Position numbers and translations under genes: made by a program. Positions 43,576 through 49,195 of a stretch of DNA of 64,000 nucleotides are shown here, one piece after another. The first letter of the stretch is position 1. Each line of letters begins with the position of its first letter. Source of the stretch: Leptotrichia sp. oral taxon 847 (GTDB taxonomy: Bacteria; Fusobacteriota; Fusobacteriia; Fusobacteriales; Leptotrichiaceae); assembly GCF_001553645.1 (NCBI RefSeq), contig NZ_CP014231.1, positions 1,922,001-1,986,000 on the forward strand, in the 5' to 3' direction. The notes under the pieces are model-generated. The model was not told the origin of the DNA. It was given only the letters and a program-made list of their open reading frames with translations, and ran no database searches.

Positions 43576-44673
43576 ATGAAATATAATTTAGCATTCAAAT
43601 ACAGAATTTATCCAAATAAAGATCAAGAATTATTGATAAACAAGACTTTTGGATGTGTTCGTTTTGTTTACAATACAATTTTGTACACTGCGAATAAAAT
43701 TTATGAAGAAACTGGAAAAAATAAAATAATTACACCTGCCAGTTTGAAAAGTGAAAATCAATTTTTGAAAGAAGTAGATAGTTTGGCACTTTCAAATGCT
43801 CAATTAAATGTAAAACGCTCGTTTACGAATTTTTTCCAGAAGAGAGCAAAGTTTCCAAGGTTCAAATCTAAAAAGAATAATGTTAAAAGTTATACGACAA
43901 ATTGTGTGAACAATTCGATACGAATAGAGGAAAACAAATATTTGGTTTTGCCAAAATTGAAAAGAGTAAAATTGAAATATCATAGAGAAATACCAAAGAA
44001 TTATAGAATAAAGTCGGTAACACTAACAAACAGTAATGGAAATTACTATGTTTCTATTTTGACGGAATTTGAAAAAGAAATCCAAAAAAATCCAAGTAAT
44101 GATAAAGTGATTGGACTTGATTTTTCAATGTCTGAATTATTTGTCAGTTCTGAAAACCAAAGAGCTGATTATCCAAAATATTTTAAGATGTTGGAGAAAA
44201 AATTGAAAAAATTACAAAAATCATTATCGAAAAAAGTAAAATTTTCTAAAAATTGGTATAGACAAAAAGAAAAAATATCAAGATTGCATGAGTATATCAA
44301 AAATTGTCGGAGAGATTTTTTACATAAATTATCAAAAAAATTGTCTGAAACGTATAATGCTGTGGTTGTTGAGGATTTGAATATGAAAGGGATGAGTCAG
44401 GCATTAAATTTTGGGAAAAGTGTAGGAGATAATGGATGGGGAATGTTTTTGAGGATGCTTGAGTATAAACTGATGTTTTTAGGGAAACAATTTTTGAAGA
44501 TAGATAAGTGGTTTCCATCGTCGAAAACTTGTAGTAAATGTGGAAACGTTAAAGAGGAGCTGAAATTATCAGAAAGAAGTTATAAATGTGAGTGCTGTGG
44601 AATTGAAATTGACAGAGATTACAATGCGGCATTGAATATAAGAGACATTGGAAAAGCGATGTTGAAATATTAA
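43576..44673 (+). CDS. tnpB: IS200/IS605-family TnpB, RNA-guided endonuclease
   Basis: A 365-aa protein with an N-terminal HTH_OrfB_IS605 region (YRIYPNKDQELLINKTFGCVRF) and a RuvC core: Asp182 (GLDFSMSEL), Glu266 (VVVEDLNMKGM) and Asp348 (IDRDYNAALN). A zinc ribbon Cys319-x2-Cys322 ... Cys338-x2-Cys341 is present. TnpB proteins cut DNA guided by an RNA from the element's 3' end. All catalytic residues are present, so it looks active. No tnpA lies nearby, so it would depend on a transposase elsewhere. AGGAGG precedes the ATG. Confidence 0.95.
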   Translation: MKYNLAFKYRIYPNKDQELLINKTFGCVRFVYNTILYTANKIYEETGKNKIITPASLKSENQFLKEVDSLALSNAQLNVKRSFTNFFQKRAKFPRFKSKKNNVKSYTTNCVNNSIRIEENKYLVLPKLKRVKLKYHREIPKNYRIKSVTLTNSNGNYYVSILTEFEKEIQKNPSNDKVIGLDFSMSELFVSSENQRADYPKYFKMLEKKLKKLQKSLSKKVKFSKNWYRQKEKISRLHEYIKNCRRDFLHKLSKKLSETYNAVVVEDLNMKGMSQALNFGKSVGDNGWGMFLRMLEYKLMFLGKQFLKIDKWFPSSKTCSKCGNVKEELKLSERSYKCECCGIEIDRDYNAALNIRDIGKAMLKY

Positions 44674-44920: not shown

Positions 44921-45364
44921 ATGGAATTTTATAATTTTAATTATTTAGAAAACAAAAAACTTATAACCGATAAGTTTTTTCTGGTGATAATGGTTTTAAT
45001 AGTTATATTTCTTTTATTTGCACTTTTTAAATGGTTTAAAGGTAGTATTTCGTTACGGGGAAAGCAGCTTAGTTTACTTGGATTAATCTTTGTAATTTTG
45101 TTTGGATTGTATAAATTTGAAGATTATCAGTCTAAAAATAATAAAGAAAAAATTTATCGAAATTCTGCAAGTGTCATAAAAAAATTGTCTACTAAATTTA
45201 AGGTCAATGAAGATGAAATTTTTATAAATACGCCTGAAATAACTGAGCATACAGTTTATAAAATAAGGAATAAATTTTACCAGATTCATTGGGTTGACAA
45301 CAGCATTTTGGTTGAAGAAATGACAGTACCTTATGTTGATGAGGTAAAAATTGTAAAAGAATAA
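44921..45364 (+). CDS. DUF3290 membrane protein
   Basis: A 147-aa protein with two membrane helices (residues about 20-36 and 50-65) and a soluble C-terminal domain (EDEIFINTPEITEHTVYKIR). DUF3290 genes regularly precede a DUF421 gene, as here. The pair's job is unknown. AAAGGAGG lies upstream of the ATG. Confidence 0.8.
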   Translation: MEFYNFNYLENKKLITDKFFLVIMVLIVIFLLFALFKWFKGSISLRGKQLSLLGLIFVILFGLYKFEDYQSKNNKEKIYRNSASVIKKLSTKFKVNEDEIFINTPEITEHTVYKIRNKFYQIHWVDNSILVEEMTVPYVDEVKIVKE

Positions 45365-45423
45365 TTTACAAAGTAAAAAAATAGTATAAATTTTTTATTG
45401 ATAGAAAGAGAGATGATTTAATT

Positions 45424-46056
45424 TTGGATTTTATAATTCCAGTTGCGATAAAACTTACGATTGGATTTATTGCATTAGTTTTATTTATGAATTTAAATGG
45501 GCGAAGCCAACTTGCTCCGATGTCAACTGGAGATCAAATTGGTAACTATGTACTTGGTGGAATTATCGGTGGTGTAATTTACAACCCTGCCATAACAATT
45601 ATTCAATTCTTAATAGTTCTATTAATTTGGGGACTTTTAATGACAGCAATTGATTTTTTAAAAAATTCCAGTACAGATGTAAAGAATATAATTGATGGTG
45701 GAATTATTTCCTTAGTAAAAGATGGAAAATTAATTCCTGAAAATTTTGCAAAAGCAAATCTTACTATTGAAAATTTTTACACAAAATTGCGAATGAAAGG
45801 AATTATTAAAATATTAGACATTGATGAAGCCTTTGTCGAATCAAATGGTCAACTTACAATTATACAGAAGGATGATGAAAATTTTGCAAGACTTTTAGTT
45901 TCAGATGGAAAAGTTATTGAGGAAAATTTAAAACATATTGGAAAAGATGTCGAGTGGCTGGAAGAAAAGCTAAAAGAATACAATATCACAGATATAAGTG
46001 ATGTTTTTTTGGTAGAATACACCAGTGATGATAAACTTTTTATTGTGAAAAAGTAA
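45424..46056 (+). CDS. DUF421 (YetF-type) membrane protein
   Basis: A 210-aa protein: three N-terminal membrane helices with LNGRSQLAPMSTGDQIGNYVLGG, and a C-terminal soluble part with GKLIPENFAKANLTIENFYT, LRMKGIIKILDIDEAFVESN and GQLTII. This is the standard YetF/DUF421 layout. The start is TTG 45424; no ATG fits. It follows DUF3290 by 59 nt and ends at the terminator at 46082. Confidence 0.85.
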   Translation: MDFIIPVAIKLTIGFIALVLFMNLNGRSQLAPMSTGDQIGNYVLGGIIGGVIYNPAITIIQFLIVLLIWGLLMTAIDFLKNSSTDVKNIIDGGIISLVKDGKLIPENFAKANLTIENFYTKLRMKGIIKILDIDEAFVESNGQLTIIQKDDENFARLLVSDGKVIEENLKHIGKDVEWLEEKLKEYNITDISDVFLVEYTSDDKLFIVKK

Positions 46057-46081
46057 AAAATATTTAAATAATAAAAATTGA

Positions 46082-46116
46082 TTTAGTGATAGGAATATTG
46101 TCACTAAATTTTTTTA
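46082..46116 (+). terminator. Terminator of the DUF3290-DUF421 pair
   Basis: Perfect stem TTTAGTGA (46082-46089) / TCACTAAA (46101-46108), then a T-rich tail. Confidence 0.8.
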
Positions 46117-46233
46117 TTTTATTAAAAAAAATTAAATTTATTTGACAATAATTGACTCGTTTGATAAAATTTTATAGATAAAAAGTTTATTTTTTTATTT
46201 AAATGAAAATTTATAATATTGGAGGTGGATGTT

Positions 46234-46355
46234 TTGAATGAGGAAATTCCAGAAGAGAATTTTAAAAGATTGAATGACTTAAAATTTACAAATTTGTGCA
46301 AATATGAATAAAGGGAATATCTTCGTTGTTGTTATTCTCCCGGTTTTTATTTGCA
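46234..46355 (+). promoter_or_regulatory. mgtE leader: short ORF overlapping a hairpin
   Basis: GGAGG (46221-46225) is followed 8 nt later by TTG 46234, opening a 25-codon ORF ending at TAA 46309-46311. The peptide begins MNEEIPEENF, with acidic residues and a proline next to the start. The ORF end overlaps the left arm of an extended hairpin: TGCAAATA (46297-46304) / TATTTGCA (46348-46355), with an inner GGGAATA / TATTCTCCC. A 17-nt direct repeat AATTTTAAAAGATTGAA occurs at 46258 and 46360. The arrangement suggests leader-peptide control of mgtE. Confidence 0.45.
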
Positions 46356-46410
46356 TAAAAATTTTAAAAGATTGAAAAAATTGGAAATGCAAAAAAGAAA
46401 GGAGATAATG

Positions 46411-47757
46411 ATGAAAAAAAACATTATTCAAAAATTTATAGATGAAAAAAAATATTTTGAAATTAGAAAGTATCTAAATGATTTAAATATCGTGGAAGTT
46501 TCAGAACTATTAAATCAGTTTGAATCTTCTGAATTGATAATGATTTTTAGGTTACTTTCCAAAAATAGGGCAGCTGATGTATTTTCGTATCTGGATAGTG
46601 AACATCAGGAAATGATTATTAAAACCATGACAGATGTGGAAACTAAAAATATATTTGATGAGCTTTATTTTGATGACATTGTCGATATTATCGAGGAAAT
46701 GCCATCAAACGTGGTCAAAAAGATACTAAAGAATACCGACGCAAAAGATAGACACACAATAAATCTTTTGTTAAAATATCCTGAAAATTCAGCTGGAAGC
46801 ATTATGACAACTGAATACATGGATTTGAAAAAGAATATGACAGCTTCTTCTGCAATTTCTAAAATTAGAAATGTTGTGGAAGATATGGCAAATGTCTACA
46901 CTTGCTATGTGATTGATGAAAGTAGAAAGCTGGAAGGGGTAGTTTCTTTAAAAGAGCTTATTACAAGCGAGGACGATGAACCTATTCAAAATCTTATGAA
47001 TAAAAATGTGATAAGTGTTCATACAAATGATGATCAGGAAAAAGTTGCAGAAATAATAAAAAAATATAATCTTATCGTACTTCCTGTGATAGATAATGAG
47101 AATAGACTTTTAGGAATTATCACAATTGATGATGTAATGGATGTTGTGGAACAGGAAGCGACAGAGGATTTTCATAGAATGGCTGGGATTTCGCCTGTGG
47201 AGGAGTCTTATTTAAAAACAAGCGCCTTTACAATGGCAAGACAAAGAATTAGCTGGTTAATTGTACTTATGATTTCTGCCACATTTACTGGAAGAATTAT
47301 AAGTAAATATGAAGATGTGCTGCAGTCTGTAGTCATACTTTCGTCATTTATTCCTATGCTGATGGATACAGGGGGAAATGCAGGTGCACAGTCTTCGACA
47401 ATTGTAGTCCGTGCTTTGGCATTGGGGGAAGTTAATACAAAAGATACTTTTAAAATATTAAAAAAAGAATTTCTTATTTCATTTATAGTAGCTATTGTTT
47501 TGGCGGCAATAAATTTTTTAAGAATTATAACTTTGACAAAGACACCTTTAAATGTTGCAATAACAGTTTCGGTAACTTTAATTTTTGTAGTTATAATTTC
47601 TAAAATAATAGGTGCTTTTTTACCAGTTGTCGCTAAAGCCTTTAAAATGGATCCGGCAATAATGGCAGGGCCTTTAATAACTACGATTTTAGATGCGCTT
47701 ACTCTTACTATTTACTTTAGATTTGCAACTATGTTTTTAAGTAATGTTATAAAGTAA
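46411..47757 (+). CDS. mgtE: Magnesium transporter MgtE, copy 1
   Basis: A 448-aa Mg2+ channel/transporter. It has the cytoplasmic N domain (about 1-125; ELYFDDIVDIIEEMPSNVVK), two CBS domains (about 125-255; AGSIMTTEYMDLKKNMTASS, LGIITIDDVMDVVEQEAT), the plug helix, and five membrane helices (MDTGGNAGAQSSTIVVRALA near the pore; AGPLITTILDALTL at the end). ATG 46411 is used because AGGAG is 6 nt upstream; the frame is open to 46351 but that part lies in the leader hairpin. Confidence 0.95.
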   Translation: MKKNIIQKFIDEKKYFEIRKYLNDLNIVEVSELLNQFESSELIMIFRLLSKNRAADVFSYLDSEHQEMIIKTMTDVETKNIFDELYFDDIVDIIEEMPSNVVKKILKNTDAKDRHTINLLLKYPENSAGSIMTTEYMDLKKNMTASSAISKIRNVVEDMANVYTCYVIDESRKLEGVVSLKELITSEDDEPIQNLMNKNVISVHTNDDQEKVAEIIKKYNLIVLPVIDNENRLLGIITIDDVMDVVEQEATEDFHRMAGISPVEESYLKTSAFTMARQRISWLIVLMISATFTGRIISKYEDVLQSVVILSSFIPMLMDTGGNAGAQSSTIVVRALALGEVNTKDTFKILKKEFLISFIVAIVLAAINFLRIITLTKTPLNVAITVSVTLIFVVIISKIIGAFLPVVAKAFKMDPAIMAGPLITTILDALTLTIYFRFATMFLSNVIK

Positions 47758-47845
47758 ATATTTTTATAAAATTTAAAAATATAAAAATTGATTGTCTAAT
47801 CGAAGTTATATGATAACTATTTAAAAAAAATGAGGTGAGAAAAAA

Positions 47846-49195
47846 ATGAAAAAGATAAAAAGAATAATTGAAGATCTTTTAAAAGAAAAAAAATATTTTG
47901 AAATAAAAAAAGAATTAGATAAATTAAATGCAGTTGAAATTTCAGATGTGATAAATTTATTTAAACTGCCAGAGCTTGTAATAATGATTTTTAGACTTTT
48001 AAAAAAGGATAAAGCAGCCGATGTATTTTCATATTTGGACAGCGAACATCAGGAAATGATTATTCACGCTTCAACTGATGTTGAAACACGGGAAATATTT
48101 GATGAACTGTATTTTGACGATATTGTCGACATTATCGAGGAAATGCCGTCGGATATTGTAAAAAAAATCTTGAAAAATACGGATAGAAAAGATAGACACT
48201 TGATAAATCAGCTTCTAAAATATCCAGATAATTCAGCTGGAAGCATTATGACGACTGAATATGTGGATTTTCAGAAAAATATGACAGTTCAAGAGGCGAT
48301 AGGACAGCTGAAAAAAACTGGAAAAGACAAGGAAAATATTTATACTTGCTATGTTACGGACAAAAACGGGAAATTGGAAGGCGTGCTTTCACTAAAGGAA
48401 TTGATTTCTAAAAAGGACAATACTGTAATTGAAAATATTATGAATACAAATTTCGTAAGTGTAAATACAAATGATGATCAGGAAAAAGTTGCAGATTTGT
48501 TTAAAAAGTATGATTTTATCGTTATGCCAGTTGTTGACCACGAAAATAGGTTTTTGGGAATAATTACGGTGGATGACGTTCTGGATGTTGTGGATCAGGA
48601 AGTTACGGAAGATTTTCATAAAATGGCAGGAATTACTTCGCCTACAGATGATTCCTATTTAAAGACAAGTGTCTTTACGATGGCAAGACAAAGAATCGGG
48701 TGGCTTGCAGTTCTTATGATTTCTGACACAATTTCAGGAAATATAATACAAGGCTATGAAAAAGTTTTGGCAAAGTCAATAATTTTAACGGCATTTATTC
48801 CAATGCTTATGTCAAGCGGAGGAAATGTTGGTTCACAATCTTCAACGGTTGTAATCCGTTCACTTGCACTTGGGGAAATTTCTCCAAAAGATGCCTTTAA
48901 AGTGATTAAAAAGGAATTTTCAATTGGAATAATGGTTTCAATAGTTTTGGCAATATTAAATTTTATAAGACTTGTAACACTTGAAAAAACTAATTTTATA
49001 ATTGCTTTTGTCGTTTCATTGACACTTGTATTTACAGTAATAGTTTCAAAGCTGGTAGGAGCACTGCTTCCGCTTGGAGCAAAAATTGTGAAGGCTGATC
49101 CGGCGGTTATGGCAACACCTTTGATAACAACGATTTCAGATGCTGTAACACTTATAATTTATTTTAATTTTGCAACAATGTTTTTGAAACTTTAA
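47846..49195 (+). CDS. mgtE: Magnesium transporter MgtE, copy 2
   Basis: A 449-aa paralogue of the preceding gene, with the same N domain, CBS pair and five-helix pore (MSSGGNVGSQSSTVVIRSLA; ATPLITTISDAVTL). GAGGTGAG precedes the ATG. The two genes are 88 nt apart and probably cotranscribed; the second has no leader ORF of its own. Differences concentrate in the second CBS domain and pore, suggesting different gating or ion preference. Confidence 0.95.
   Translation: MKKIKRIIEDLLKEKKYFEIKKELDKLNAVEISDVINLFKLPELVIMIFRLLKKDKAADVFSYLDSEHQEMIIHASTDVETREIFDELYFDDIVDIIEEMPSDIVKKILKNTDRKDRHLINQLLKYPDNSAGSIMTTEYVDFQKNMTVQEAIGQLKKTGKDKENIYTCYVTDKNGKLEGVLSLKELISKKDNTVIENIMNTNFVSVNTNDDQEKVADLFKKYDFIVMPVVDHENRFLGIITVDDVLDVVDQEVTEDFHKMAGITSPTDDSYLKTSVFTMARQRIGWLAVLMISDTISGNIIQGYEKVLAKSIILTAFIPMLMSSGGNVGSQSSTVVIRSLALGEISPKDAFKVIKKEFSIGIMVSIVLAILNFIRLVTLEKTNFIIAFVVSLTLVFTVIVSKLVGALLPLGAKIVKADPAVMATPLITTISDAVTLIIYFNFATMFLKL

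Follow-up and report, generated by a model that had tools for sequence, protein, structure and literature searches.

The M-box riboswitch (RF00380), a known Mg2+ riboswitch, controls mgtE genes in other bacteria. The window analyzed here (64,000 nucleotides from the genome of Leptotrichia sp. oral taxon 847, a single contig of 2.19 Mb) contains two tandem mgtE genes; a first-pass annotation of its sequence had claimed that the first of these, mgtE1, lacks an M-box and is preceded by a short leader peptide that could be a separate Mg2+ control. The locus thus raises the question of whether such a leader is real and, if so, how it could set the expression of a Mg2+ transporter. The lack of an M-box was confirmed: the window contains no Rfam match at gathering score, the mgtE leader has a sole chance match (E 7.8) and no sequence match to the M-box, and the RF00380 covariance model matches none of 13 Leptotrichia genomes and none of the 15 genomes in which we located the leader.

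The features of the locus are collected in Table 1. The product of 46411-47757 belongs to the MgtE family, that is, the MgtE, MgtE_N, and CBS domains were all found in it; its structure match is the solved MgtE of T. thermophilus. Elsewhere in the same genome, mgtE3 and corA have no leader of this kind and no Rfam match; CorA is present in each of the 13 Leptotrichia genomes. The mgtE promoter is adjoined on its upstream side by a gene pair (window 44921-46056), first a DUF3290 gene and then a membrane gene of the YetF/DUF421 type. An IS605 OrfB/TnpB-type gene (365 aa, window 43576-44673; OrfB_IS605, Cas12f1-like TNB, and HTH domains) is located ~1.5 kb upstream of the leader.

Table 1. Features of the mgtE1 leader and its surroundings (positions in the window; energies and z scores are those of the window sequence).
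Feature	Position	Strand	Basis or remark
Likely promoter, TTGACA-17-TAAAAT, with TG ahead of the second hexamer	46142..46170	+	consensus scan, 11/12; sequence match alone
Leader Shine-Dalgarno (SD) sequence, GGAGGT	46221..46226	+	sequence; identical in 15/15 aligned leaders
Leader ORF: TTG start 46234-46236, 25 sense codons, TAA 46309-46311	46234..46311	+	conserved frame, stop position, pN/pS
Region 1, leader codons 2-6 (AATGAGGA + ATTCC)	46237..46250	+	pairs with region 2; duplex -14.2 kcal/mol, z -3.8
Hairpin holding the last leader codons in its outer stem	46293..46359	+	RNA fold z -3.7; outer stem retains 5-8 of its 8 pairs across the 15 leaders
Region 2, GGGAATA + TCTTCGTT, hairpin 5' arm and loop	46313..46327	+	near-invariant core GGAAT-TCTTCG; partner is region 1 or 3
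Region 3, TTGTTGTTATTCTCC, hairpin 3' arm with the end of the loop	46326..46340	+	pairs with region 2 or the mgtE start
Region 4, mgtE SD and start GGAGATAATGATGA	46401..46414	+	predicted masking by region 3; 3:4 duplex -11.7 kcal/mol, z -2.3
mgtE1, Mg2+ transporter gene	46411..47757	+	Pfam MgtE, MgtE_N, CBS; structure match 2yvx, E 1.4e-81
mgtE2, tandem paralogue of mgtE1	47846..49195	+	without a leader of the mgtE1 type; a single RNA-model match per genome

The 25-codon ORF that had been described in front of mgtE1 is present, together with its Shine-Dalgarno sequence; in the window genome, the peptide after the start codon is NEEIPEENFKRLNDLKFTNLCKYE. In all 15 leaders the start codon is TTG and the Shine-Dalgarno sequence is perfect. 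The ORF lengths are 20, 21, 25, or 37 codons in 14 of the 15 and, despite this variation, the stop codon is located 2-3 bases ahead of the GGAAT core of the hairpin, also in 14 of 15. The exception is the leader L045 from the genome G020, in which the leader proline is absent and the usual stop is one base out of frame, that is, the ORF traverses the hairpin and terminates 17 bases short of mgtE; the lost stop is either a genuine change or a sequencing error.

In pairwise comparisons of the 13 Leptotrichia leaders, the leader frame contains no stops in 1545 codon pairs (pN/pS 0.44), whereas stops occur in 178 of 1447 codon pairs in one of the other two frames and in 180 of 1477 in the second (pN/pS 0.72 and 1.02, respectively). 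Alignment gaps in the same leaders are multiples of three within the ORF and single bases in the hairpin loop and downstream. Judged by frame and substitution pattern, the leader ORF is coding; as for mgtL and mgtQ, a translated-looking short ORF with a Shine-Dalgarno sequence is found upstream of a Mg2+ transporter gene. A chance small ORF in an ordinary 5' UTR might have been suspected, given that a 464-kb portion of the window genome contains as many as 650 SD-led small ORFs, but the conservation of the start motif, the stop position, and the pairing across three genera refutes this explanation, and we assign it a vanishingly small probability.

Two other frames were considered and rejected: an ATG-started frame at 46238 (a different frame from that of the TTG ORF) is unique to the genome of the window, and the frame of a second small ORF across the hairpin (46304-46375) is not conserved among the 15 leaders. 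A 16-base direct repeat, ATTTTAAAAGATTGAA, has one copy within the leader ORF (46259-46274) and one between the hairpin and the mgtE SD (46361-46376); it is not conserved in the aligned relatives. In three leaders (L009, L010, and L012 from G002, G004, and G001, respectively), a frame that opens where the leader ORF ends continues in frame into mgtE, adding 29-32 codons; annotators may call a longer MgtE in these genomes by way of this extension.

Codons 2-6 of the leader have a pN/pS of 0.05 in the 13 Leptotrichia, with N-E-E-V/I-P held as silent positions vary. All 15 peptides begin N-E-E, and 14 of them N-E-E-V/I-P (Pro6 in 14/15). The second acidic pair, EE7-8, located after the proline, is kept in 8/15 (P-E-E is present in 8/15), so only two acidic residues are invariant. 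For comparison, we used a simple ORF-finding script to call background ORFs over 464 kb of the genome that contains the window: 28 of the 306 SD-led ORFs of at least 120 aa carry two acidic residues within positions 2-6; an adjacent acidic pair in residues 2-6 combined with a proline in residues 2-7 occurs in none of these 306 and in only one of the 650 SD-led small ORFs, this one being the mgtE leader itself. Early acidic residues are reported to destabilize the ribosome, an effect that Mg2+ relieves (PMC9718836, PMC11282234); the second of these studies gives DPEE as the minimum motif for clear EttA dependence, and 8 of the 15 leader peptides have P-E-E. Conserved acidic residues and a proline straight after the start are what characterizes leaders of the mgtL/mgtQ kind. 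The first-pass annotation had likened the peptide start to that of E. coli mgtL; the likeness stands for N-E-E and Pro6, and does not extend to a second acidic pair in 7 of the 15 leaders. The better-fitting precedent is Salmonella mgtQ, by which control is translational; control by mgtL is by Rho-dependent termination.

The leader DNA was matched in 13/13 Leptotrichia genomes, and the frame with its acidic/proline start is conserved before mgtE in every one of them, as the annotation's proposal implies. A search for mgtE orthologues took in 33 genomes of the family; on inspection of the upstream regions of four more orthologues, the leader was also located in two further genera (genomes G014 and G020), whereas it was absent upstream of the tandem mgtE in G017 and from the sequence inspected upstream of the G013 orthologue. 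A degenerate-pattern search of 98 Fusobacteriota genomes identified the same 15 with the leader and two genomes with matches that we rejected as ordinary gene starts (one match at a MarR-like gene in G073 and three at a transposase gene in G029); a match in a Bacillota MAG was rejected as the ordinary start of a MATE-like transporter gene. These gene labels are from our reading of the translations. The three G029 matches (L077-L079, on three contigs) share near-identical upstream sequence and the transposase gene start, that is, they are copies of a repeated insertion element.

A covariance model trained on the full set of 15 leaders has exactly one match in each of the 15 genomes (E 2e-14 or better among the 98 searched); as these leaders went into the model, their matches document copy number and absence elsewhere, not support. 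Neither the pattern nor the model located the leader in the other 83 genomes, where the model has one weak match (G095, E 0.04) that was rejected as an ordinary gene start. The 15 leaders represent three genera of one family and are not independent. Among the literature matches listed, none describes a leader peptide before mgtE in Leptotrichia; a survey of Leptotrichia buccalis counts eight uORF candidates, two of which are named in its passages (PMC11109978), and one of the unnamed candidates could be this leader.

How might such an ORF communicate with mgtE? According to the folding predictions, the leader RNA can adopt two mutually exclusive arrangements of its regions 1-4: in one, region 1 pairs with region 2 and region 3 with region 4 (1:2 + 3:4; mgtE start masked); in the other, region 2 pairs with region 3 (2:3; mgtE freed). 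When the complete leader of the window is folded, the minimum-energy structure combines 1:2 with 3:4, the OFF state. The leader ORF ends, as had been claimed, in the left arm of a hairpin: its stop codon lies between the outer stem (46293-46304/46348-46359) and the inner stem (46313-46319/46333-46339; both read from folds). The description of this hairpin as just upstream of the mgtE ribosome-binding site was right about the order and somewhat loose about the distance, with ~40 bases separating the hairpin end from the SD (46400-46404). In the window, the 88-nt hairpin is more stable than all of 200 shuffles (z -3.7), and the stability of the whole leader is unremarkable (z -0.97).

The three pairings differ in how they fare across the 15 leaders. 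The 3:4 pairing retains 11-13 of 13 pairs, with compensating change (-10.8 to -17.5 kcal/mol; z -1.9 to -3.9); two pairs are changed on both sides, the covariation score is reached by 1 of 500 shuffles, and the number of pair types is below that of the shuffles. The 1:2 pairing retains 12/12 pairs in the window and 8-12 of 12 across the leaders (-11.5 to -17.0 kcal/mol; z -0.5 to -3.8 vs shuffles), without covariation above shuffles in the 15-leader alignment (71/500 reach the score); when the partners were swapped between species, the duplex was scarcely weaker (-14.6, compared with -14.9 for own partners). We considered the change in L045 as a compensation within 1:2 and rejected it; in the swap test, its region 2 pairs better with region 1 of other species. 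The 2:3 inner hairpin taken alone has z from 0 to -5 and, in 7/15 leaders (z 0 to -0.6), is no better than shuffles; its covariation is likewise not above shuffles in the alignment (306/500 reach the score). On the 15-leader alignment, the share of cells in which the pair is formed is 96.6% (of 175) for 1:2, 87.2% (of 179) for 2:3, and 96.4% (of 195) for 3:4, compared with 42-66%, 52-69%, and 37-73%, respectively, after sliding; because the pairings were read from one aligned sequence (L009), this comparison is biased in their favor.

These structures might instead be those of an RNA that binds a protein or senses Mg2+ directly as a riboswitch, the ORF being incidental. The nucleotide conservation of regions 1-4 is consistent with pairing, the loop TCTTCG is invariant, and a new riboswitch class would need no Rfam family; however, an incidental ORF does not agree with a frame free of stops in 13/13 Leptotrichia, with gaps that are multiples of three bases within the ORF but single bases elsewhere, with amino acids 2-6 held while third positions vary, or with a perfect SD and a stop position tied to the hairpin, and we regard this explanation as very unlikely.

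For a ribosome-operated leader, the position of the ribosome on the ORF should decide between the arrangements. We blocked 32 nt of the leader as a ribosome footprint and computed how costly it then is to open the start region of mgtE, an equilibrium folding estimate with a crude footprint and free of kinetics: the median costs are 9.5 kcal/mol for free RNA, 7.0 with the ribosome at the leader start, 6.3 with codon 5 in the P site, 9.3 at codon 12, and 11.0 at the last codon. Opening costs less with the ribosome at codon 5 than at the last codon in 15/15 leaders (for G020, whose own stop is elsewhere, the last codon was placed by hand at the usual site) and less than in free RNA in 14/15 (equal in L013). 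In 7 of the 15 leaders, last codon minus codon 5 is 2.0 to 8.4, matched by 0, 0, 3, 0, 0, 0, and 1 of 40 shuffles each; for the same seven, the relief (free RNA minus codon 5) is matched by 0, 1, 3, 0, 0, 2, and 1 of 40.

Codon-by-codon scans of five of the 15 leaders again place the cheaper opening at the first codons rather than the last. In four, a low plateau extends from codon 1 to ~11 (to codon 9 in L007, which shows a weak effect), and by codon 12 the cost has come back to the free value or close to it; from codon 17 it climbs above the free value in L001 and, slightly, in L003. In the long L044 leader, the cost starts low (codons 1-6), follows no regular course across the middle of the ORF, and ends high. 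The earlier suggestion that a ribosome on the leader changes the hairpin is, as a prediction from these footprint-based folding estimates, borne out. Comparison and computation together support the ORF, its conserved peptide start, the alternative pairings, and their dependence on ribosome position, and we consider it highly likely, on this modeling, that a conserved, ribosome-operated translational switch precedes mgtE.

The switch would operate as follows. Without a ribosome on the leader, 1:2 would pair, leaving region 3 free to cover the mgtE ribosome-binding site (OFF). A ribosome held or lost at the acidic N-E-E-V/I-P stretch would cover region 1 without reaching region 2, so that 2:3 would form and mgtE would be translated (ON). 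A ribosome that arrives at the stop codon, which precedes the hairpin core by 2-3 bases, would break 2:3, and region 3 would again mask mgtE (OFF). With an early-held ribosome ON and an absent or finishing ribosome OFF, a peptide that promotes drop-off at low Mg2+ would switch MgtE on in Mg2+ shortage; the fall-off step would be intrinsic ribosome destabilization, favored by low Mg2+ and leading to more MgtE. We infer that the ribosome aborts at N-E-E-V/I-P, that Mg2+ is the signal, and that mgtE output follows. The whole chain, a ribosome-operated mgtE switch in which Mg2+ is sensed by ribosome destabilization, is our best reading of the locus, with a probability of roughly 0.64.

This anatomy closely resembles that of Salmonella mgtQ (PMC8092293), a short ORF with a strong SD before a Mg2+ transporter gene, with acidic residues and one proline after its start (Asp2, Pro4, Glu5). 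For mgtQ, mutations showed that control of mgtB operates through the same scheme (1:2/3:4 vs 2:3) and through Asp2 and Glu5; the acidic codons hinder translation of the leader, and loss of the start codon lowers mgtB (PMC8092293). In both leaders, 1:2 + 3:4 exclude 2:3, region 1 is located in the first codons and takes in bases of the Pro codon, the ribosome-binding site of the transporter gene serves as region 4, and the default is OFF; for the mgtE leader, these exclusive structures that join the ORF start to the transporter gene, and their setting by ribosome position, are computed. The single Pro codon of mgtQ acted through pairing, not as proline (PMC8092293); by analogy, the Pro codon of the mgtE leader may also act through pairing, because region 1 contains bases of it. 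The differences are the transporter (MgtE, not MgtB), the position (operon start, not intergenic), the length (20-41 codons, not 8), the TTG start, and the phylum (Fusobacteriota, not enterobacteria), and the function in Leptotrichia is a prediction. Because transporter and phylum differ, convergence is likelier than common descent, and the mgtE leader is probably an mgtQ-like translational Mg2+ switch that arose convergently on an unrelated transporter.

The leader shares with mgtL (before mgtA in E. coli and Salmonella) an acidic/proline N-terminus, which in mgtL makes ribosomes unstable when Mg2+ is low and turns the transporter on; however, mgtL acts by Rho-dependent termination, whereas the anatomy of the mgtE leader points to translation. 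The corL leader (before corA in the same two organisms) is likewise a UUG-start ORF before a Mg2+ transporter gene, with expression inverse to that of the transporter; it differs in being Rho-dependent, in its transporter (CorA), and in having fewer acidic residues and prolines than mgtL (PMC11552253). Given that mgtL and corL work via Rho (PMC11552253), leader translation could govern an intrinsic or Rho-dependent terminator before mgtE, and a U-rich stretch (46344-46348) does follow the hairpin in the window. Yet no terminator-like site was found in 45400-48200, that is, no intrinsic terminator of the trp attenuator type separates the leader ORF from the gene, and the complementarity of region 3 to the mgtE start in 15/15 leaders is needed for translational control and not for termination; we give transcription attenuation a low probability. 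Another RNA element, the SRC-65-1 mgtE motif, is also located before mgtE and includes the SD, but it is reported only from Thioalkalivibrio, and the passages that describe it do not mention a leader ORF (PMC11109978).

The same leader and ribosome could also answer to a signal other than Mg2+, for example charging of Pro or Glu tRNA, the supply of EF-P or ABC-F proteins, or the weakness of TTG initiation, in which case mgtE would follow general translation capacity. The weak TTG start in 15/15 and the single Pro codon conserved in 14/15 are compatible with this explanation, and Salmonella mgtP, in the same operon as mgtQ, answers to charged tRNA-Pro (PMC8092293). A search for the EttA family (TIGR03719) identified many ABC proteins, ABC-F-type proteins among them, in 13/13 Leptotrichia genomes, though all are below the family cut-off. 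However, Glu3-Glu4 are invariant and the proline is not, mostly a single Pro codon is found near the start, acidic N-termini are known Mg2+-sensitive destabilizers (PMC9718836, PMC11282234), and the downstream gene encodes a Mg2+ transporter; a different signal is thus unlikely, if not negligibly so.

Taking Mg2+ as the signal, the leader could occupy the place of the M-box. The M-box is present in 18 of the 98 Fusobacteriota genomes, and none of these 18 carries the leader; this lack of overlap in the sample is weak evidence for replacement because most of the 98 genomes have neither element. On balance, we slightly favor the view that Leptotrichia and two sister genera use the translating ribosome as a Mg2+ sensor that evolved independently of that in enterobacteria and is wired to translation of MgtE in the M-box's place.

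In the papers found, ribosome-destabilizing leader peptides are described as Mg2+ sensors for mgtL and mgtQ of enterobacteria; corL is a weaker case. New here would be the mgtQ-type logic on MgtE and in a distant phylum. The 15 natural leader variants, including one without the proline and seven without the second acidic pair, could show which residues matter. If the proposed switch is correct, the fragility of the ribosome at low Mg2+ would be a general sensor that evolution has reached repeatedly, here with an unrelated transporter in a distant phylum.
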